DNA of 64,000 bases, taken from assembly GCF_024584705.1 (NCBI RefSeq), contig NZ_CP097384.1, forward strand, positions 310,001-374,000, given 5' to 3'. The position numbers were made by a program, and so were the translations under genes. Numbering within the stretch: the first letter of the stretch is position 1; each line of letters begins with the position of its first letter. Origin of the DNA: Blastopirellula sp. J2-11. Its GTDB lineage: Bacteria; Planctomycetota; Planctomycetia; Pirellulales; Pirellulaceae. The notes beneath the pieces are model-generated. The model searched no databases, was not told where the DNA came from, and saw nothing but the letters and a program-made list of their open reading frames with translations. Positions 29,975 through 42,625 of the stretch are shown here, piece after piece.

Positions 29975-31429
29975 ATGCTATTCCGTGCTCTCTTCGCTTG
30001 CCTGGCCTTTGTTGCGTTTTTCGCGTCGCCGCTATTGGCGGCCCAGGATCGCCCCAACATCATTTTGGTGATGGCCGACGATCAGGGGTGGGGAGACGTC
30101 GGCTATAACCATGCGGCGCCGATCTTGACGCCGAATCTGGACAAAGCGGCTGCCGAGGGGGTTCGCTTCGATCGGTTTTACGCCGCGGCTCCGGTTTGCT
30201 CGCCGACACGCTGCAGCGTGTTGACCGGCCGCAATCCAAATCGTTCGGCGGTCTATGCTTGGGGGTGGCCGATTCGTCCGCAAGAGATCACCTTGGCCGA
30301 GCGGCTGCAAGTCGCAGGCTACGCAACGTCGCACTTTGGCAAATGGCACCTCGGTTCGGTACGCACTGACAGCCCGGTCAATCCGGGCAAGTGCGGTTTC
30401 GATCACTGGATCAGCGCTCCCAATTTTTATGACAACGATCCGATCTTGTGCGACCAGGGTCGTGCGATTCAGTATCACGGCGAAAGCTCGGACGTGACCG
30501 CTGACCTGGCGATCGATTGGATTCGCGAGCAGGCGAAAAGGGAGAAGCCGTTCTTTTCGGTCGTGTGGTTTGGTTCGCCGCATAACCCGCATATCGCCGC
30601 GGACGCCGATCGCGAACTGTACAAAGATGAGCCTGCCAAGTTTCGTGATTACTACGGCGAAGTGACCGGTATCGATCGGGCGTACGGCAAGATCCGCAAT
30701 ACGCTGAAAGAGTTGGGAATCTCTGACAACACGATTCTGTGGTACTGCAGCGACAATGGCGCCGACAAGGCGAAAGGCTCGGCCGGCCTCTTTCGCGAGA
30801 AGAAGGGTTCGATCTACGAAGGCGGTTTGCTCGTGCCGGGCATTCTCGATTGGCCGGTTCGCTTTCCGGCGCCGCAGACGACATCGCTGCGAGCGACCAC
30901 CTGCGACATCTTTCCGACGGTGCTGGCTGCCGCCGGACTGTCGCCAGATGAGGAACGTCCGCTGGATGGGATCAACCTGCTGCCGCTGCTGACGGCGAAG
31001 ACCGAAGCACGACCGCAACCGATCGGATTTTGGCAGACAGCCAACGGTGGAATGCCGGTTCGTTCCGATGCGATGATGCAAGAGCTATTGAACAAGCAAG
31101 CGGCTGGCGGCGATTTGCCGGTGGAAGAAGTGAGTATTCATGCGGCTGACCTGCCGCAACCGCCGGTCTCAACTGATACCTTTCCGGGACACGCGTCGCT
31201 GATCAGCGGCGATTGGAAACTGCATCGCATTGAGAATAAGAAAGGAGCGGTTCGTTTCGAGTTGTACGATTTGGCCGCCGATCCGTATGAGAAGCAAAAC
31301 GTACTGAAGCAGTATCCAGACGTAGCCGAGCAGCTGACGAAGCTGCAACACGATTGGCAACTTTCGGTCGTCAACAGCTTGAACGGCGCTGATTATTCGT
31401 TGCCTAATGGGCCAACTGTCCAGCCGTGA
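29975..31429 (+). CDS. Secreted sulfatase (arylsulfatase family)
   Basis: A 484-residue exported sulfatase (signal MLFRALFACLAFVAFFASPLLA). The metal-binding start NIILVMADDQGWGDVGYN and the modification motif VCSPTRCSVLTGR are intact. Cys75 is expected to be converted to formylglycine. Further hallmarks are HFGKWHLG and YCSDNGADKAKGSAGLFREKKGSIYEGG. The enzyme removes sulfate esters, probably from marine polysaccharides or glycans, in the periplasm or outside. An anaerobic or aerobic sulfatase-maturating enzyme is not encoded nearby. Family-level assignment is secure, substrate is not. Confidence 0.93.
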   Translation: MLFRALFACLAFVAFFASPLLAAQDRPNIILVMADDQGWGDVGYNHAAPILTPNLDKAAAEGVRFDRFYAAAPVCSPTRCSVLTGRNPNRSAVYAWGWPIRPQEITLAERLQVAGYATSHFGKWHLGSVRTDSPVNPGKCGFDHWISAPNFYDNDPILCDQGRAIQYHGESSDVTADLAIDWIREQAKREKPFFSVVWFGSPHNPHIAADADRELYKDEPAKFRDYYGEVTGIDRAYGKIRNTLKELGISDNTILWYCSDNGADKAKGSAGLFREKKGSIYEGGLLVPGILDWPVRFPAPQTTSLRATTCDIFPTVLAAAGLSPDEERPLDGINLLPLLTAKTEARPQPIGFWQTANGGMPVRSDAMMQELLNKQAAGGDLPVEEVSIHAADLPQPPVSTDTFPGHASLISGDWKLHRIENKKGAVRFELYDLAADPYEKQNVLKQYPDVAEQLTKLQHDWQLSVVNSLNGADYSLPNGPTVQP

Positions 31430-33374: not shown

Positions 33375-33676
33375 TTTCCGCCAGAGCCGATTGCTGAAAA
33401 GTCTCTCACGACTGCATGCTTTTTGCGCAATTTTCGCCCGGTTCTCCATGGTTGCTCGGCGAACGGTTTTCTCTCGCGCATTTTCTGTCTCATAGATAAG
33501 CGAGAGAGGGTTCCGGAGACGGTGCGGCATGTCGCTGGAATGTCCGTAAGCTGCTTTCATGCAAGGGATTGCGTCTATTTGGCGCCGCTGCTGTCGGATC
33601 CCCGAAAGAGATCGGTATAGCGTTTGCTAATTTTGACCAAGCAAATATCCCGTATTCCTTTTTGGGTGACGAATCG
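33375..33676. other. Intergenic region upstream of prepilin operon, no gene seen
   Basis: These 302 bases separate the AraC-type gene from the DUF1559 gene. The frame of the DUF1559 gene is open from 33569, but those 36 residues have no signal character and precede a clear prepilin start. No hairpin with T-run was recognised. Confidence 0.45.
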
Positions 33677-34582
33677 ATGAAAAAGCGTGGTTTTACATTG
33701 GTCGAACTATTGGTCGTGATTGCGATCATCGGAGTTCTCATAGGGCTTTTGCTTCCCGCAGTACAACAGGCGAGAGAAGCGGCTCGCCGAATGAGCTGTA
33801 CGAATAATATGAAGCAACAGGGGCTGGCCCTGCATAACTATCACGATACCTACGGCGCATTGCCGAACGGAAGCATCTCGACCAACTGCAGTCCCAATAT
33901 TTCAATCTTGCCCTTTCTAGAAGCCGGAAACGCGGAAGACCTTTACGATCATACTAAGCCGTACAACGATACCGAAAACCTTGATCTCAATAACAAAATG
34001 CCAGACGCCTACATCTGTGCGTCGACTCCGCAAGGAGGCGAGCCGTTGACGTCGTCCAAGGGCTTGGGCTTTCAAACTTCCGACTACAGTTATGTTCTAA
34101 ATTCGACATTGGGATATTCGGGAACATTCGCTCGCTATAGCCCATTCAGCAAGATAACAGATGGGCTGACCAACACTCTCTTTATGTATGAAGCCGCGGG
34201 GCGAGCGCACATCTACTTCAACAACACGCAGATGTCCTCAAGCTTTGAAGAAAACGTCGCAGGCACAGGCATCGTCTGGGGCGACGCTGTCAGCGTCTTC
34301 TCGGTGCCATGGACGGGATATTCAAACGGCCTGCGACTTCAAGCTCAGACTTATGTGCTGAACGCGATGACTCCGGCGGATACTTATCCGACAGTGATCA
34401 GCACCGGCAACGTCATGAATAACACCAACTTCTATGGGAACGCTTACTCGTTTCATACCGGCGGGATGAACTCACTATTGGGAGACGGGTCTGTTCATTT
34501 CATTCGCGAGAATATTGACGCTGCAACGATGGAAAAATTAACGAATCCGACCGATGGCGACGTAGTGGGGGCCTTTCAATGA
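33677..34582 (+). CDS. DUF1559 prepilin-like protein
   Basis: The ATG at 33677 puts a type IV prepilin-style leader first ([19 protein letters not shown]), with cleavage expected between Gly and Phe and Glu at position 5 of the mature form. The DUF1559 signature [18 protein letters not shown] and the [13 protein letters not shown] motif follow. The C-terminus contains the expected [18 protein letters not shown] motif. This family is massively expanded in planctomycetes and its role is unclear, probably a surface or secretion pseudopilin. The stop overlaps the next start (ATGA at 34579), so the lipoprotein is translationally coupled. Confidence 0.92.
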
Positions 34583-35073
34583 ATCTCAGCCACATGAATA
34601 TCAACCGGCGTTTTGCTGGGATCGTGATGAGTTTGTTGGTCGTGATCGGCTGCAATCGCGACTCTAGTTGGCAGGCGCGGACCTATCCTGTCACCGGCAC
34701 GATCACGATCAACGACATCTCACCCCAAGACGCGGTGTTGATGCTTTACCCCACCGGAGAAAAGCTCGATATGCGGGATTCGAAGAGCTGGGGACTGGTC
34801 AAAGAAGATGGATCCTATGAGCTTTCAACCTATGGGTTAGGCGATGGCGCGCCCGCAAGCAGCTACGTAGTGACGCTAACCTGGCCGCAAGGGACGAGAC
34901 TTTACCCCGTTGATCGTCTCGATGGCAAGTTCGCGAATCCGGACAATCCCGTGACTGAAATCCAAATTAAGCCCGGGCGAAACACGCTGCCGCCGATCAC
35001 CCTTTCTAATGTCAAGATCTTGCCCACGCCTTTGAACAATGAGTTTTTTACTCCCGGTCTTCCCAGCAACTAA
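34579..35073 (+). CDS. Small lipoprotein with carboxypeptidase-regulatory-like fold
   Basis: A 164-residue lipoprotein (lipobox VIGC, Cys25). The mature part has a beta-sandwich pattern ([23 protein letters not shown]... then [15 protein letters not shown]) like the transthyretin or carboxypeptidase-regulatory domains that often accompany DUF1559 genes in planctomycetes. It is coupled to the prepilin gene by ATGA overlap. A second pair of the same design lies at 45138-46623. The exact role is unknown. Confidence 0.82.
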
Positions 35074-35114
35074 GGGCCGGGGTTTTTGTCCAATAATCCT
35101 CGATTGATTGAAAA

Positions 35115-36257
35115 ATGAAAAAGTACCGAGTTCGATTTGGGCTGATGGTCCTGTGCATGGTTGTGCTGAATTGGGGCCAGCCCCCTATCTCATTCGCAAA
35201 TGAGACGGAAAAGTCTGAACCAGTGGAAGCTGTCAGCATCGCCAACCGACTTTGGAAGATTCAAGGAGCGGCTTTCAAATACGAAGGTGCGACCCTCGAA
35301 GAAAAACAGGCGTCGCTTCGTAAGAACCTCGCCGTCGGCGTCGAAGCGATGAAACCATTATTGGAAGAGGACCTGTCTGTTGATGATCGACTGCAAGCGG
35401 CGGCGCTTCAGCTAAAGCTGCTGAAGCTGCTGATGAAAGCCGGCGAAGCGGAAAGATCCGTCGAATTAGAAGCGGCCCTCCAGGGGTTAGCCGCTTCGGA
35501 CGAACCGCGACTCAGGACCTTGGGCGAAGAGTATGCGATTATGTTTTCATTAGACGGCGTCTCGACACTGGAGCCTGCCCTGCAGGTGAAGCGAATCGAC
35601 GCAGCGATCGCCTATGTGCTGGGGCAAGCGCCGACGAAAAAATTGCTGCAATTCGCCGTGAACTGCGCGGCCTTCATCGAGCCGGCGACAGAGTATGGTC
35701 CGGCCGCCAAGGCGCACCAGAAACTTGCCGAGCATTTTCTCTCGGCCGACGACCCTGCCTTAGAGAAGGGGGGCAAGAAGTTTCAATTGACTGCGAAGCG
35801 TTTGAGCTTACCCGGCATGTCGATGGAATTGACGGGGACCACGATGGAAGGCAAATCGTTTGATGTGAAGCAACTGAAAGGCAAAGTCATTTTGGTCGAC
35901 TTTTGGGCGACTTGGTGCGGACCATGTATCGCCGAATTTCCAAAAATGAAGGACCACTATGCAAAGTACCAATCGCATGGCTTCGAAATTGTCGGCGTGA
36001 GCATTGATGAGAATCGTGAACATCTCCAGCATTTTTTGGACAAGAACGAAATTCCTTGGATCATCCTGCACGAAGAAGGGGACGAAGAGAAGCAAGGATG
36101 GAAGCACCCAGTCGCCAAACAGTACGGCATTAGCGCTGTTCCTTGCATGATCTTGATCGACGCCGATGGGAATGTCATCACGACACAAGCTCGCGGCGAA
36201 GAGCTGGAGCGGCGATTGGAGTCGCTCTTCCCAGGCGTAGAATCGAGTGAGTCGTAA
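35115..36257 (+). CDS. Secreted TlpA-like thioredoxin-fold protein
   Basis: A 380-residue protein with a signal peptide (residues 1-29, ending SFANE). A helical N-terminal half of about 200 residues leads to a TlpA/ResA-type thioredoxin domain. The redox motif is Cys268-Gly-Pro-Cys271 in DFWATWCGPCIAEFP, and the cis-Pro region AVPCMILIDADGNV contains an extra Cys just before the Met. It probably reduces or isomerises disulfides in the periplasm. It follows the prepilin/lipoprotein pair by 41 bases, so the three genes may form one operon ending at the terminator at 36277. Confidence 0.9.
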   Translation: MKKYRVRFGLMVLCMVVLNWGQPPISFANETEKSEPVEAVSIANRLWKIQGAAFKYEGATLEEKQASLRKNLAVGVEAMKPLLEEDLSVDDRLQAAALQLKLLKLLMKAGEAERSVELEAALQGLAASDEPRLRTLGEEYAIMFSLDGVSTLEPALQVKRIDAAIAYVLGQAPTKKLLQFAVNCAAFIEPATEYGPAAKAHQKLAEHFLSADDPALEKGGKKFQLTAKRLSLPGMSMELTGTTMEGKSFDVKQLKGKVILVDFWATWCGPCIAEFPKMKDHYAKYQSHGFEIVGVSIDENREHLQHFLDKNEIPWIILHEEGDEEKQGWKHPVAKQYGISAVPCMILIDADGNVITTQARGEELERRLESLFPGVESSES

Positions 36258-36356: not shown

Positions 36357-36695
36357 TTAAGCGCGCCAGTAGTACGGCGGCGCGTCTTGCCCGGCAAAGT
36401 CTAAATACTCGGATCCGTTGGTTGGCTGCGGTTCGGTCGTGGCGCAATCTGCGGCGGTCAACGGTCGCCAATCAGCGCAGCGGCGATAGGTTTCGACCAT
36501 TTGTTGGTCAAGGGGAAACTTTTTCAGCACCGCTTCTTGCCAGAGCCAAAGCGAGCCCTCGTTCGATCCGTACGGCAATTGGGGAAACCGCAACTGCACC
36601 GGGTCATCTTCCCAGCCGCAGACTGGGCAAATCTCGTAGCTGCCGGTTGGATCGTCAAAAACTTCAAAACCGCAAGCGGGGCATGGGTAGGGCAT
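36357..36695 (-). CDS. CPCC-domain cysteine-rich protein
   Basis: A 112-residue protein starting MPYPCPACGFEVFDDPTG, followed by YEICPVCGWEDDPVQL, which is the CPCC cysteine-rich domain. The two CxxC pairs likely bind one zinc. The start at 36695 is preferred because the domain begins at once, and the 18-codon upstream extension is not domain-like. These proteins are short, cytoplasmic and uncharacterised. It is convergent with the TlpA-like gene and divergent from the MMPL gene, 278 bases away. Confidence 0.85.
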   Translation of the reverse strand: MPYPCPACGFEVFDDPTGSYEICPVCGWEDDPVQLRFPQLPYGSNEGSLWLWQEAVLKKFPLDQQMVETYRRCADWRPLTAADCATTEPQPTNGSEYLDFAGQDAPPYYWRA

Positions 36696-36973
36696 CGTGA
36701 TCGGTTTTCCAATCCTTGTTCGCAGGAATATCAAAACATATCGAGGCAATCGATTCGGCCATCTTGGCGGCGATTCGCGAAATTGGCGCTCGCCTGCGTC
36801 TCGGCGCCATATTCTTCGACGGCTGCTCCATTCTCGCGCACAGCTTTCTCGGTTGTCTAGCGGAGTACTTGGTCATTGCTTGAGATCGATTTGTCGCAGC
36901 CCAGGGGAAATGCTACAAACGTGAAGCCTCTTCTAGGGGTGTCGACTAGAAACGACTCTCCAGCAGCACGCAC

Positions 36974-39229
36974 ATGCCTTACGAAAACGCCAGCATGCGA
37001 AGGAAGACCATCGTCGCGGTGGTGCTTTTTCAGTTTCTCATCGGCGCATCGATCTGCATCCTCGGCATTTTGAAGATCGATACGAACATCGAAGATGTGA
37101 TGCAATGGCTCCCCGACCATTCGGACGAGCGCGACCTTTATGAGTCGCTAGTGTCGCGGTTCGGCGTCGATGATTTTCTGCTGGTGACTTGGGACGACTG
37201 TACGGCCGACGACCCGCGCCGACAGTTGGTCGAAGATCGGTTGCAGCGAGACGATGTCAGCGGGCTCGTCGCAAAGACGATCTCAGGCGCCAACTTGCTG
37301 GAGAACAACAGTGCAGGCTATGAGACGCAGGGGGCGATTATCGAGCGGTTTCGCGGGTTCTTCTTTGGTGAGAACGACCAGACCTGTATTGCGATCATTC
37401 TGACTAAATCAGGCATGACGAATCGATTGGATTCGATGGAGTTTGTCGAAACGGCCGTGCGCGACAGTGTCGGCGCCGATCAAGCGGGATTGCTGATCGT
37501 CGGCTATCCGGCGATTTCAGCGGAAGGGGATAAGCTGATCCGCCAGAATTTGACCAACGCGCTGCTGCCGTGTTGCCTGTTGGCGACAATTGTGGCGTGG
37601 TTCTTTCTCCGAGACCTGCGGCTGGTTCTGGTGGTCTTCCTCACCAGCGGCGTCGCCAGCGGCATGAGCATCGCAATAGTGACCTTGAGCGGTTACAAAT
37701 GGGGCGGCCTGACTTCGGCGATCCCTGCGCTCACGTTTATCCTGTCGGTTTCCGGTACGTTGCATCTGATCAATTATGCCCGCGGCGCCGATCATTCTCA
37801 GATCGCCGCAACGGCGCTGCGGCTTGGTTGGAAGCCTTGTCTCTTTTCCGCATTGACCACGGCGGTCAGCATGTTGTCGCTCAGTCATAGTGAATATCAG
37901 GCGATCCGCGAATTTGGATTTTTTTGCGCAGCTGGCGTGGTGAATTCGGTCTTTTGGCAATTAGCGTTCGCACCTTGGGCGTTGCAGTTGATCGCAGGAA
38001 AAATCGAGACCGGGCGTGCTGGCGCGTCACTGGCTCCGTTACATGACTGGACAGCGGCGCATCCACGTTTTGTCTTTGGCTGGTTCGTCGTAGCGCTTGT
38101 GGTGACGGCCTGCGGCTTGCCGATGCTCCAAAGCGGGCTCGAGGTCGAAGAGATGTTCGGATCTGAGATCGCGACGATTCGCGACGTCGCCCGCTTTGAG
38201 GCGAAGATCGGTCCGATCGACCAAACCGAACTGCTGGTCGAATTTGTCGCCGCTGATCCGGCTCAGTTGGCGGATCGAGCGGCCGCGATTCGCCAACTGC
38301 AAACGGTTCTGGAAGAAACCGCGGAAGTCGACGCAACCTTGTCTGCGACTGCCTGGTTGCCGCCGGAATCGGAGAAGCGCGGGATCGCCGGCGTGAGCCA
38401 GCGCGTCTTGTACCGCAAAAAGCTGGCAGGCTTACGCGAGCAATTGACCGAGACTTCTTATTTGTCGCTTCAGTCGACGCCCTCTGGCGAAGCGATCGAA
38501 ACTTGGCGAATCAGTCTGCGCTTTCCCTTTTCGAAAAGCGTCGATTTTGAGCAGTTGCGAGATTCGGTGGCGATCGTCGCCAAGCAAGAACTGGCGAAAC
38601 GGTATTCGCCCGACGAGATCCAGATTCAACAGACCGGCGTTGGCCTGCTGTACCATGTCGCGCAAAACAAGTTGATGGCCGATCTCTTTTTCAACTATCT
38701 GCTGGCTTTCGCCGTCATCTGCCCGTTGATGATGCTGGCGCTTTGGTCGGTTCCGTTGGGCCTGCTGTCGATGATCCCCAACTGTTTTCCGGCGATCTGT
38801 TTGTACGGAGCGATCGGACTGTGGGGGCAACCGATCGATATCGGCATTGCCATCGCCGGTTGCATCGCGCTGGGAATTGCGGTCGACGATACGACCCATT
38901 TTATGATGCGGGCCAAAGAAATCGCGCTACGCGAAGAGGGATCGTCGAGAATCACTAGCAGCGCAATCCGAATCGCCTATGCGCAATGTTCACGCGCCAT
39001 GTTGGCGACAACGTTGATCGCGACGGTGGGACTCGCCGCCTTCTTAAATCAGACGTTGTTGGTGATGTCGCGTTTTTCGCTGGTCTTGATTCTCTCACTG
39101 CTCATCGCACTCGTTTGCGATCTGTTGCTGCTGCCGGCGCTGCTTTATACGTTTCGCGTGACGGGCCCGCCGGATGGTAGGCGGGTAGAAGTGGGAGATC
39201 GCAAATCGAGTTGCTCAAGCGGCTATTAG
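36974..39229 (+). CDS. MMPL/RND-superfamily exporter
   Basis: A 751-residue transporter with the RND duplicated plan. There is a first membrane helix near residues 8-30, a periplasmic loop (DTNIEDVMQWLPDHSDERD), five to six helices at about 210-350 including SVSGTLHLINYARG, a further helix near 360-380, a second loop, and a last helix bundle with GIAVDDTTHFMMRAKE, the hallmark that corresponds to the proton-relay segment. An in-frame ATG at 36995 is an alternative start. MMPL proteins export lipids and lipid-like products. Convergence with a fatty acyl-AMP ligase fusion gene 87 bases away suggests it exports that enzyme's product. Confidence 0.9.
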   Translation: MPYENASMRRKTIVAVVLFQFLIGASICILGILKIDTNIEDVMQWLPDHSDERDLYESLVSRFGVDDFLLVTWDDCTADDPRRQLVEDRLQRDDVSGLVAKTISGANLLENNSAGYETQGAIIERFRGFFFGENDQTCIAIILTKSGMTNRLDSMEFVETAVRDSVGADQAGLLIVGYPAISAEGDKLIRQNLTNALLPCCLLATIVAWFFLRDLRLVLVVFLTSGVASGMSIAIVTLSGYKWGGLTSAIPALTFILSVSGTLHLINYARGADHSQIAATALRLGWKPCLFSALTTAVSMLSLSHSEYQAIREFGFFCAAGVVNSVFWQLAFAPWALQLIAGKIETGRAGASLAPLHDWTAAHPRFVFGWFVVALVVTACGLPMLQSGLEVEEMFGSEIATIRDVARFEAKIGPIDQTELLVEFVAADPAQLADRAAAIRQLQTVLEETAEVDATLSATAWLPPESEKRGIAGVSQRVLYRKKLAGLREQLTETSYLSLQSTPSGEAIETWRISLRFPFSKSVDFEQLRDSVAIVAKQELAKRYSPDEIQIQQTGVGLLYHVAQNKLMADLFFNYLLAFAVICPLMMLALWSVPLGLLSMIPNCFPAICLYGAIGLWGQPIDIGIAIAGCIALGIAVDDTTHFMMRAKEIALREEGSSRITSSAIRIAYAQCSRAMLATTLIATVGLAAFLNQTLLVMSRFSLVLILSLLIALVCDLLLLPALLYTFRVTGPPDGRRVEVGDRKSSCSSGY

Positions 39230-39316
39230 GAAGCTTTCTCTAAGGTTGCTTGAAGTAAGCCGCGCATTGTCCTTATCCAGTGATGCGAAAAATTCGCACC
39301 GCTCTCCGAAATTCGA

Positions 39317-42300
39317 TCACGGCGCCGAGAATGAGGAGGAAGTACGAGAAACGGTAATGGTTCTCTTCTCCATTCCTTTCGCTTCCAACGCTCGCTCCAT
39401 GCGACTTTGAGATTGCATCGTTGACAATGCTTGGAAGACGCTCAACGCACTGTCGATTTCATCCTCGGTTAACGACGCAGTCACGGTCGCGCGGATTCTC
39501 GGCTTGTCCATCGGCACGGCTGGGTAGAAGACCGGAACGACAAAGAGCCCCTGATCGCGACAGAAACCGACGGCTTCCAACGTTTCTTTTTCGGTCGAGA
39601 AGATGATCGGAACGACCGCCGATTCGGTTGGCGGCACTTCAAAGCCGAGTTGCCGCAGCCCGCTCACAAATTGGTCGCACAGCCTTCGCAGCCGATCGGC
39701 CAAATGAGGCTCACGTTGAATGATCTCGAAGCACTTACGAGCCGCGCCGACTTGGGCCGCCGGCAATGCCGCCGAGAAGATGAAGCCTCGTGCGGTGTGC
39801 TTGAGAAAATCGATGATCTCTTGGCGAGCGGCGATGAAGCCGCCGCAGCTGGCGATCGATTTGGAAAGCGTGCCCATCTTGATGTCGATCGCGTCGTCCG
39901 GCAGGTCGAAGTGTTCTTGAATTCCCTTGCCGGTTTTGCCGATCACGCCCAAGCTGTGCGCTTCATCGACCATTAACAACGCGCCGTACTCGCGACATAG
40001 TTGGATGATGCGCGGGAGGGGAGCGATATCGCCTTCCATCGAATAGACGGCGTCGACGATGACAAGCATGCGTCGTCCACGGTGTTCTTTGAGAATCTCT
40101 TCCAGCTCTTCCATGTTGTTGTGCGAGAACATCAGGAAGGTCGCCGCCGAGAACTGGCAGCCGTCGACGATGCTCGCATGGTTCAACTCGTCGCCGATGA
40201 CGAAATCCCCTTTGCCGACCAGAGCGGCGACCGTCGCCAGATTCGTCATGAATCCGCTGCTATAGACGATCGCATCGTCGGAATGGAAAAATTCGGCAAT
40301 CTCCTGCTCAAGCTGTCGATGCGCGTCAAAGGTGCCGGCCAGCAGGCGCACGCCGTGGGCGCCTGTCCCATACAGGGCGATCGCTTCTTCGGCAGCCTGG
40401 TTGATCTCGGGCCGATTGATCAGGCCGAGATAACTGTACGACGCCATCATTAGCATCTTCTGGCCGCCGACCCAGGCATAGCTTCCTTCTTGTCTTTCGA
40501 TCACGGTGCCGAAATAGTCGTGCCCAGCATCCCGAAATTGGTGGAAGCGCTGGAGGCCTTCTTGGAAGAAGCCGAGATAGTCGGCCTGAGTCAGCGCGGC
40601 ATGACCGTTGCCGCCGGCCAACGAATTGGTCGGCACGCGGCGACCAAGGAATTGACTTAGCTCATCGATCGTATGTTGCTGGTAGAGCGTGTCAGCTTCA
40701 ACGCTGAAGCCAAGTTTTTTCTCTAGCCGAGCGCCGATGTCGGCGGCCGCCAGCGAGTCAACGCCGAGCGAAGTGAACGTCGTGTGTCCATCCAGCGGTG
40801 GGAGTTGTTGCTCTTCGTCGCGCGCCCATTCTTGCAAGATGTCGCAAATGATCGTGGTCAGTTCCGCCGAACCGGAGGGAGAAGTTTCGACCGTCTCCGG
40901 CGTGCGGACCGCCGATTCAAAGACGATTTCAAAATCGCCGCTCTCGAAGCGTTTTTTGGCCAGTTGCCGCTGTACTTTTCCGCTAGAAGTGGTCGGAAAG
41001 GTCGCGGGACGCACGAACATCAAATCGGTCAGCGCCACTTCAAACTGATTGAGGATCGCCGAGCGGAGCGTGTCGATCTTGTGGTGAAGATCCACCAACT
41101 CGCCGTTGCCGCCGCCGTTGTTGGACCAGCGAACCATCTCGCGGGTTCCTTCGGCGATCACCAGCAGTTTTTCTTCCCCATTGCTCTCGACGGAAAATGC
41201 GGCGCAACTGTTCGGTTCGATCACTTCGAAGTGTTGCTCGACCAGTTCCTCAATGTCTTGCGGATAGATGTTTCGTCCACGAATGATGATCAGATCTTTC
41301 AAGCGACCCGTCACATACAACTGTCCGTCTCGGAGAAACCCATAGTCGCCGGTACGGAGCCAATTGCGATCGTCTCCCTCGAGCTGGGCTTGGAACGCTT
41401 CGACGGTCTCGTTGGTCCGATGCCAGTATCCTTGAGCGACGCTGTCGCCGTTGAGCCAGATTTCTCCAACTTCATGGGGGCTGCGCTGGATGAAGGTCTC
41501 GGGATCGACAATCCGAACTTCGAGATCAGGTCCGACCTGGCCGCAACTGACGAGCGGTCGACCTTGATCCGAGTCGACGATCTGATGTTGGACAAGCTGT
41601 GCGGCGTCAACGGTGACAATATCGGTGTTCGCGAGCGGTGGTCCACCAGAAACAAGCAGCGTCGTCTCGGCCATGCCGTAGCAAGGGAAGAAGGCCTCGG
41701 GACGGAAGCCGCAATCGGCGAACGCTTCGCTGAATCGCTGCACGGTCTCAGCGCGAACCGGTTCGGAGCCGTTGAAGGCGATCGTCAACGACGAGAAATC
41801 GAGCTTTGTCTTTTGCTGGGGCGTGATTTTTTTCGCACATAGATCGAAGGCGAAATTGGGAGCGCCGGTCGCTGTCGCGCCGAAGTCCGTCACGGTTTGC
41901 AGCCACTTGATCGGTTCGCGCAGGAAGGTGTTGGGCGCCATCAACACGGATGGGAACCCGACAAACAGCGGCGCAAGAATGCCGCCGATGAGTCCCATAT
42001 CGTGGAACATCGGCAACCAAGAAACGACCGTCGACTCTTGGGTGAATTGGAAATACTGCTGGATCAGTTGCTCGTTGGCGACCATGTTTCCATGAGTCAC
42101 CATCACGCCCTTAGGAACAGCGGTCGAACCTGACGTGTATTGCAGGAACGCCAATTGATCGCTGTGGAGTTGCGGCAGCGATCCGCCGCTCGCAGCGCTC
42201 CGTTCATTGGTAGCAAGGACCGTCGATCTCGGCATCGCACGAGCAATTTCGCCTTCGACATTCCGCTTGGTCTCGGAAGCGCAGAGGAGCAAACGGGGCG

Positions 42301-42625
42301 AACAATCCTCGGCGATGGTGAGGATCCGTTCGGCGTTGCGATTCTTCTTGGGGGGATAGGCGGGAACCGCAACGATCCCGGCGTACAGACACCCCAGGAA
42401 CGCTTCAATGAAATCAAGACCGGCGGGATACATCAACAACGCTCGGTCGCCCGGTTCAACTACCTGCAGCAAGCGGTGAGCGATTTCCCGGGCACGTGAA
42501 TCAAGGTCTCGGTAATTGACCGAGATTTGCTCTTCATCCGATTTCAGAAAGGTAAATGCGGTCTTGTCCCCCTGCGATTCCACATGGGCACGCAAGGAAT
42601 CAAGGAGGGTCTCGGTTTTCTTCAT
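39317..42625 (-). CDS. Fusion of fatty acyl-AMP ligase, acyl carrier and alpha-oxoamine synthase
   Basis: A 1102-residue three-part enzyme. Residues 1-570 are an adenylate-forming domain of the fatty acyl-AMP ligase type (YTSGSTAVPKGVMVTHGN; IAFNGSEPVRAETVQRF; CYGMAETTLLVSGG; TGDYGFLRDGQLYVTGRLKD). An acyl carrier domain follows, with Ser624 in LGVDSLAAADIG. Residues 690-1080 are a PLP enzyme of the serine palmitoyltransferase/AONS/KBL family (GTGAHGVRLLAGT; DELNHASIVDG; VDEAHSLGVIGKTGKG; PLP Lys922 in GTLSKSIASCGG). The predicted reaction is activation of a fatty acid, loading on the built-in carrier, then decarboxylative condensation with an amino acid to an alpha-amino ketone. The amino acid and chain are unknown. 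Confidence 0.92.
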   Translation of the reverse strand: MKKTETLLDSLRAHVESQGDKTAFTFLKSDEEQISVNYRDLDSRAREIAHRLLQVVEPGDRALLMYPAGLDFIEAFLGCLYAGIVAVPAYPPKKNRNAERILTIAEDCSPRLLLCASETKRNVEGEIARAMPRSTVLATNERSAASGGSLPQLHSDQLAFLQYTSGSTAVPKGVMVTHGNMVANEQLIQQYFQFTQESTVVSWLPMFHDMGLIGGILAPLFVGFPSVLMAPNTFLREPIKWLQTVTDFGATATGAPNFAFDLCAKKITPQQKTKLDFSSLTIAFNGSEPVRAETVQRFSEAFADCGFRPEAFFPCYGMAETTLLVSGGPPLANTDIVTVDAAQLVQHQIVDSDQGRPLVSCGQVGPDLEVRIVDPETFIQRSPHEVGEIWLNGDSVAQGYWHRTNETVEAFQAQLEGDDRNWLRTGDYGFLRDGQLYVTGRLKDLIIIRGRNIYPQDIEELVEQHFEVIEPNSCAAFSVESNGEEKLLVIAEGTREMVRWSNNGGGNGELVDLHHKIDTLRSAILNQFEVALTDLMFVRPATFPTTSSGKVQRQLAKKRFESGDFEIVFESAVRTPETVETSPSGSAELTTIICDILQEWARDEEQQLPPLDGHTTFTSLGVDSLAAADIGARLEKKLGFSVEADTLYQQHTIDELSQFLGRRVPTNSLAGGNGHAALTQADYLGFFQEGLQRFHQFRDAGHDYFGTVIERQEGSYAWVGGQKMLMMASYSYLGLINRPEINQAAEEAIALYGTGAHGVRLLAGTFDAHRQLEQEIAEFFHSDDAIVYSSGFMTNLATVAALVGKGDFVIGDELNHASIVDGCQFSAATFLMFSHNNMEELEEILKEHRGRRMLVIVDAVYSMEGDIAPLPRIIQLCREYGALLMVDEAHSLGVIGKTGKGIQEHFDLPDDAIDIKMGTLSKSIASCGGFIAARQEIIDFLKHTARGFIFSAALPAAQVGAARKCFEIIQREPHLADRLRRLCDQFVSGLRQLGFEVPPTESAVVPIIFSTEKETLEAVGFCRDQGLFVVPVFYPAVPMDKPRIRATVTASLTEDEIDSALSVFQALSTMQSQSRMERALEAKGMEKRTITVSRTSSSFSAP

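Follow-up and report, generated by a model that had tools for sequence, protein, structure and literature searches.

A predicted self-loading alpha-oxoamine synthase fusion and its convergent MMPL neighbour in Blastopirellula sp. J2-11

Described relatives and the layout of the fusion

Beyond the Bacteroidota and Proteobacteria, evidence for sphingolipid synthesis consists mostly of genome-based predictions. Rhodobacteria have a specialised acyl-ACP synthetase (AasR) that charges a special acyl carrier protein (ACP), and serine palmitoyltransferase (SPT) takes the acyl-ACP as its substrate; this AasR/AcpR/SPT route has been shown biochemically (PMC9386255), and CerS and CerR are described as acting after SPT (PMC11324152). 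Here we analyse a 64,000-nucleotide stretch of the genome of Blastopirellula sp. J2-11 (contig NZ_CP097384.1, positions 310,001 to 374,000; hereafter the window), in which open reading frames were annotated over about 30-51 kb of the 64 kb. It encodes a protein of 1102 aa (39317..42625, minus strand) in which domain scans identify a fatty acyl-AMP ligase (FAAL), an ACP and an alpha-oxoamine synthase (AOS), and which is convergent with a gene for an MMPL/RND protein. The protein is, on balance and judged from its sequence, probably a single-chain, self-loading alpha-oxoamine synthase, a genus-specific second copy that would more likely serve a special sphingoid-type lipid, with the MmpL-like protein as the candidate mover.

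Several described proteins share parts of this arrangement. BioWF, a single protein that both activates an acid and performs the AOS condensation, accepts alanine, serine and glycine and demonstrates that such a fusion can function; it differs in that it makes acyl-CoA, has no carrier domain and has a BioF as its AOS (PMC9544090). Caulobacter and E. coli BL21 have an AasR, AcpR and SPT set in which a dedicated ACP is loaded by a FAAL-type ligase, after which an enzyme dependent on pyridoxal phosphate (PLP) condenses the acyl-ACP with serine (PMC9386255), but the three proteins come from separate genes and their SPT lies inside the SPT clade, whereas the window AOS lies beside it. The AasR of the BL21 set (locus L104) is near-identical to the FAAL of PDB 3pbk. 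A Streptomyces flavofungini protein (locus L196, 2139-10349(+)) has a FAAL start and a carrier-linked AOS in one polypeptide, but also ketosynthase (KS) and acyltransferase (AT) domains and, behind the AOS, an epimerase domain at the C-terminus, all of which the window fusion lacks. We take it to be of the prodiginine RedL type, its epimerase end looking as if RedL and RedK had been fused.

The layout itself is already known, since a planctomycete protein of this order was tabulated in 2013: Table 2 of PMC3870968 lists A-CP-PLP2 proteins from Blastopirellula marina (A3ZWL3) and Microscilla marina (A1ZVW4), one of the two a planctomycete, and gives their layout but no function. The window fusion shares their domain order (AMP-binding, PP-binding, Aminotran_1_2), a comparison of layout only. 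An earlier note on this DNA, which held that such an enzyme would be notable in planctomycetes, thus overstated its novelty; the same genome also carries a second and far commoner FAAL-ACP-AOS, and Spt-like proteins are reported from 138 Planctomycetota bins of the Black Sea (PMC11334938). What is new is the probable independent assembly, the AOS branch of its own and the neighbouring MMPL gene.

Both reading frames described in the earlier note lie where it placed them, and the domains and the residues Ser624 and Lys922 were confirmed. The FAAL part (residues ~5-566; 40928..42613, minus strand) is recognised by Pfam and NCBIfam, with one model for nonribosomal peptide and polyketide synthases (NRPS/PKS) at the top (597 bits), then FAAL models at 455-343 bits, each below its own cut-off; by family and fold it is a FAAL (Foldseek to 7r7f_A, TMt 0.94). 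Its best solved relative is a Synechococcus olefin synthase domain (42-43% identity), and because this domain was crystallised with palmitoyl and stearoyl adenylates, analogy suggests that the fusion may prefer C16-C18 acids. The ACP part (residues 596-660; 40646..40840, minus strand; PF00550, E 1e-12) holds the Ser624 codon at 40754-40756. In the AOS part (residues 676-1070; 39416..40600, minus strand), delimited by domain scan and tree, alignment to S. multivorum SPT identified the PLP lysine Lys922 (codon 39860-39862), the PLP-stacking His816 (codon 40178-40180) and a VDEAHS motif with the Asp that faces PLP N1.

These domains support the chemistry that the earlier note implied, namely fatty acid activation, carrier loading and PLP-dependent condensation. 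The FAAL part would adenylate a free long-chain fatty acid and load the acyl group onto the Ser624 phosphopantetheine. A decarboxylative condensation of this acyl-ACP thioester and a small amino acid, catalysed by the PLP part through Lys922, would then yield a long-chain alpha-amino ketone, which the convergent MmpL-like protein is a candidate to move. In effect, the fusion would do in one chain what AasR, AcpR and SPT of Caulobacter and E. coli BL21 do as separate proteins. We infer the reaction steps, the substrates, the transfer within one chain and the export from the observed domains, motifs, phylogeny, distribution and synteny. If true, conversion of a free fatty acid to an amino ketone in one protein would offer both a compact marker and a biocatalyst.

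Phylogeny and distribution of the fusion

Profile scores for the AOS part are close to a tie. The NCBIfam models for BioF (383 bits), Bacteroidota-type SPT (374) and a BioF/Kbl-related family (361) all score below their cut-offs, and the three SPT equivalog models reach 374 of 640, 328 of 500 and 260 of 670 bits. The best PDB sequence is S. multivorum SPT (298 bits), followed by Thermus ThAOS (273), Kbl (244), Sphingomonas SPT (231) and BioF (209; E. coli BioF 180); Foldseek E-values for Kbl, SPT and ThAOS are about equal.

A careful tree of 58 AOS domains (CqsA, ALAS, CFAT and PigH are absent from the trees) separates BioF, Kbl and Thermus-type enzymes from SPT and carrier-linked AOS (100/96). 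It unites the four window-type fusions with the nine ACP-AOS didomains included (100/98), and a larger group (95/95) adds to these the AOS of genome G234 and free-standing AOS of Atribacteria, Coriobacteriia and Heimdallarchaeota bins. Sister to this larger group (100/97) is a carrier-linked clade (100/100) comprising the common planctomycete fusion, the PKS-borne AOS of the source genome, ligase-ACP-AOS proteins from a Clostridiales bin and from other planctomycetes, a RedL-like Streptomyces protein and a single free-standing AOS of Magnetococcales. Ten of the 11 rows labelled SPT form one clade, and the eleventh (L080, genome G408) branches before it. Since the AOS clade beside SPT also holds carrier-linked AOS domains, the window AOS is best read as converting an acyl-ACP to an amino ketone within the same chain. 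Approximately unbiased (AU) tests rejected a grouping of the window AOS with BioF (p 1.4e-10) or with Kbl (p 3.7e-10), the two placements for which the earlier note had proposed a phylogeny of the PLP domain, and on this point its assignment held. In an uncultured Clostridiales bin (L202, 5442-9092(+)), an AMP-ligase, an ACP and an AOS were seen in one frame.

The source genome is a single contig of 6.43 Mb, 99.6% complete, and holds four AOS proteins (BioF model, E <= 1e-40): the window fusion, a paralog, a PKS-AOS and a 448-aa protein that scores above the BioF cut-off and is BioF. No free-standing SPT was found in it with the same model and threshold. The paralog (L040 6608-9982, equal to G000:C1:2484607-2487981, minus strand, where G000 is the source genome) is a second FAAL-ACP-AOS in one 1150-aa frame, 47% identical to the window fusion in the FAAL and 34% over the ACP-AOS; it is of the order-common type and is a candidate SPT of the ceramide pathway. 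This common type, a single frame of 1.1-1.26 kaa that holds both FAAL and AOS, occurs in 24 of 30 related genomes (own included). The widest cluster among its neighbours, the fusion and overlapping frames aside, is present in 10 of 32 loci, and none of the clusters was an obvious lipid gene. The two types differ in both AOS and FAAL phylogeny. Because the AU test rejects a single clade of all FAAL-fused proteins (p 7e-55; 14 rows, the grouping having been suggested by earlier trees) and a quick FAAL tree places the window FAAL outside the starred 37-row set containing the common fusions, independent assembly is the most likely origin of the genome's two FAAL-ACP-AOS proteins.

The window type has a far narrower range. 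It is found in 4/4 genomes of the source genus, the other three copies being 93, 78 and 75% identical. A search of 241 family genomes with the AOS (E <= 1e-85) listed no additional fused copy of this type, the two other fused proteins that matched (40%) being members of the common clade. A scan of genome contigs gave its best 80 matches, so that the relatives named are a sample. Twelve of the 241 carry ACP-AOS didomains in frames of 520-600 aa, with an AOS 49-52% identical to that of the window and an ACP directly N-terminal of it (DS(L/M) motif in 11, TSM in the twelfth), and one more such relative (L255) comes from another family of the order. Across 392 phylum genomes (E <= 1e-100) there is one other close AOS, that of G234 (47%). 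As a genus-specific second copy beside an order-wide FAAL-ACP-AOS, the window fusion is likelier to serve a special sphingoid-type lipid than to supply the ceramide base in bulk.

The G234 protein (L049 6356-9997(+)) is a window-group AOS fused to DUF3419, which is presumably BtaA-like. A link to DUF3419 was considered from this fusion and from an ACP-AOS relative with DUF3419 ~6 kb off (L244), but DUF3419 is present in 175 of the 241 family genomes and the link was set aside.

The amino acid site and the convergent MMPL gene

In S. multivorum SPT, the substrate is anchored by His138, and Ser81 makes a water-mediated contact with its carboxylate (PMC10196870). The counterpart of His138 is kept in the fusion, and the Ser81 position is Val759. 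Since the ACP-AOS kin vary here (Val, Ala or Ser), serine, alanine and glycine are all candidates for the amino acid used. Valine at this position is shared with the glycine-using Kbl and the promiscuous ThAOS, which favours a product made from glycine, alanine or another amino acid: a special amino ketone or derivative that would be moved out by the MMPL protein. This proposal, one of two special cases of the self-loading synthase (the other is the second SPT considered below), also gains from the genus-only spread that the fusion shares with the MMPL gene, but it is weakened by the variation among the kin and by the contact of SPT Ser81 with the carboxylate rather than the side chain (PMC10196870), and we hold it only tentatively. 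A CAI-1-type signal, a product named in the earlier note, is not supported: the CqsA model (NF005526) gives 190 of 428 bits, against 383 for BioF and 374 for SPT, CqsA itself being absent from the trees. The ceramide synthase homolog in the genome, on the other side, counts in favour of the earlier note's reading.

The MMPL/RND gene (36974..39229, plus strand; 751 aa; PF03176) forms a convergent pair with the fusion in 4/4 genus genomes, its identity to the other three copies being 90, 76 and 73%, and in the 40 genomes searched (E <= 1e-60) no homolog from beyond the genus comes closer than 32% identity. The protein has MMPL domains, and its model has an RND fold over the whole chain; Foldseek ranks MmpL first, although VIA-align cannot separate MmpL from SecDF and drug pumps, and PDB sequence matches are weak and are to drug pumps (E 0.008). 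Mycobacterial MmpL3/4/5 and HpnN share the fold at 13-16% identity, but SecDF and AcrB-type pumps score equally, so that the fold cannot tell lipid exporters from drug pumps. Export of the fusion's product by this protein is accordingly put forward as what it may do. Synteny alone is modest evidence for the link, because a sulfatase gene at 29975 and a gene for a small Cys-rich CPCC protein beside the MMPL gene (36357..36749, minus strand; 130 aa; PF14206, E 2e-17) are equally kept in 4/4 genus genomes, the latter at 84, 76 and 69% identity. The interval between the sulfatase and MMPL genes is variable: an AraC-type gene (93%) is found in one of the three relatives, with at most remnants in the other two. 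Within it, at 33569-36257 of the window, genes for a DUF1559 pseudopilin-like, a 164-aa and a thioredoxin-like protein are fast-changing, at 42-53% in one relative and at most remnants in the others.

Ceramide context and the remaining explanations

A homolog of bCerS/Aca, 39% identical to the E. coli N-acyltransferase YghO over 372 aa, is encoded elsewhere in the source genome (L293 9380-10525, equal to G000:C1:5864379-5865524, minus strand). It adjoins genes for an FtsX-type permease and an HlyD-like protein, both kept in the genus, and within the 19.5 kb of this locus no AOS or epimerase match was found. A bCerS homolog is present in 37/40 genomes (own included). Thirteen neighbourhoods of relatives and the source genome were fetched, 12 with bCerS and one (L294) chosen for an epimerase; a CerR-like epimerase adjoins bCerS in three of the 12 (L299, L303, L304), and the partner of bCerS is a free-standing, SPT-like AOS at one locus (L295 7983-11354, G408) and a common-clade ACP-AOS at another (L296 8111-11069, G393). 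Five of the 12 window-type ACP-AOS kin adjoin an NAD-dependent epimerase/dehydrogenase that is 26-28% identical to E. coli Epi/CerR; three of these, when compared with the epimerases adjoining bCerS in the same order, show 34-45% identity to them. Such CerR-like neighbours appear to tie the window-type AOS family, as distinct from the window gene itself, to keto-lipid reduction.

Wider counts give a mixed picture of the common paralog and ceramides. In 40 class genomes among the 392, the common-paralog AOS type and bCerS occur together in 11, the AOS alone in one (G373) and neither in 28; these counts were read by hand, and because the genomes are related the Fisher p means little. Outside the class, a bCerS match was found in 0/8 genomes with a carrier-type AOS (E <= 1e-100), which speaks against a fixed link of carrier-type AOS to ceramides, and among the 30 relatives G397 has bCerS yet only BioF- and Kbl-type AOS. 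In other planctomycetes, 44/44 pairs of a free-standing AOS and bCerS lie <1 kb apart; as only pairs already seen to be adjacent were typed, this shows that the arrangement exists and does not imply its frequency.

Several points weigh against the fusion being a self-loading synthase of sphingoid-type lipids. Its AOS scores below every NCBIfam cut-off and lies outside the SPT clade, a clade of SPT with the four window fusions alone being rejected (AU p 0.005). Related AOS domains in PKS lines of the RedL type release other products. A search of the open-access literature found no paper on a FAAL combined with an oxoamine synthase, and no assay of a FAAL-ACP-AOS layout with one ACP and no KS. 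No reductase gene adjoins the window fusion. The genome's best match to the CerR-like protein L247 (G000:C1:201151-202128, 25%) is HpnA-like (247 bits, cut-off 368) and was not counted as CerR.

A broader scenario, which we rate as less likely than not, is that the order moved its first sphingolipid step from a free-standing SPT to a self-loading FAAL-ACP-AOS, and that the genus independently built a second, MmpL-paired one whose product would be a distinct sphingoid lipid, secreted or at the surface, with free fatty acids as its source and no need of acyl-CoA. One protein leading from a free fatty acid to an amino ketone would explain how ceramide synthesis could start in bCerS-bearing planctomycetes where no free-standing SPT was found, and two paralogs in one genome could tell membrane from exported lipid roles.

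It is rather doubtful that the self-loading synthase is simply a second SPT, one that makes 3-ketosphinganine for ceramides from acyl-ACP and L-serine, either in addition to the paralog or in its place. S. multivorum SPT is its best solved relative, the AU test does not reject a clade joining SPT to the entire window-type group (p 0.12), and the bCerS homolog and the CerR-like genes of the ACP-AOS kin would fit; against this stand the valine in place of serine at the Ser81 site and the distribution, since a fused form confined to one genus cannot serve the bCerS-bearing relatives, for which the common paralog is the better candidate.

It is improbable that the fusion hands its product or acyl chain to a PKS or NRPS line elsewhere, or that its AOS performs another acyl transfer. 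The sister clade of its AOS group holds PKS-borne AOS, and the genome has both a PKS-AOS and a phosphopantetheinyl transferase (PPTase), but no KS, AT or condensation domain was found in the fusion or among the scanned neighbours. The PPTase and a small ORF judged by eye to be ACP-like lie in a row upstream of the reducing PKS (L042 177-9091, equal to G000:C1:6034176-6043090, plus strand), the last with 2564 aa and the order KS-AT-DH-ER-KR-ACP-AOS, and this polyketide line should, from its domains, end in an amino ketone. That the window fusion is a BioF or Kbl of primary metabolism is very improbable: its BioF score of 383 bits is near the cut-off of 426, but a true BioF stands elsewhere in the genome above that cut-off and the AU tests reject both placements.

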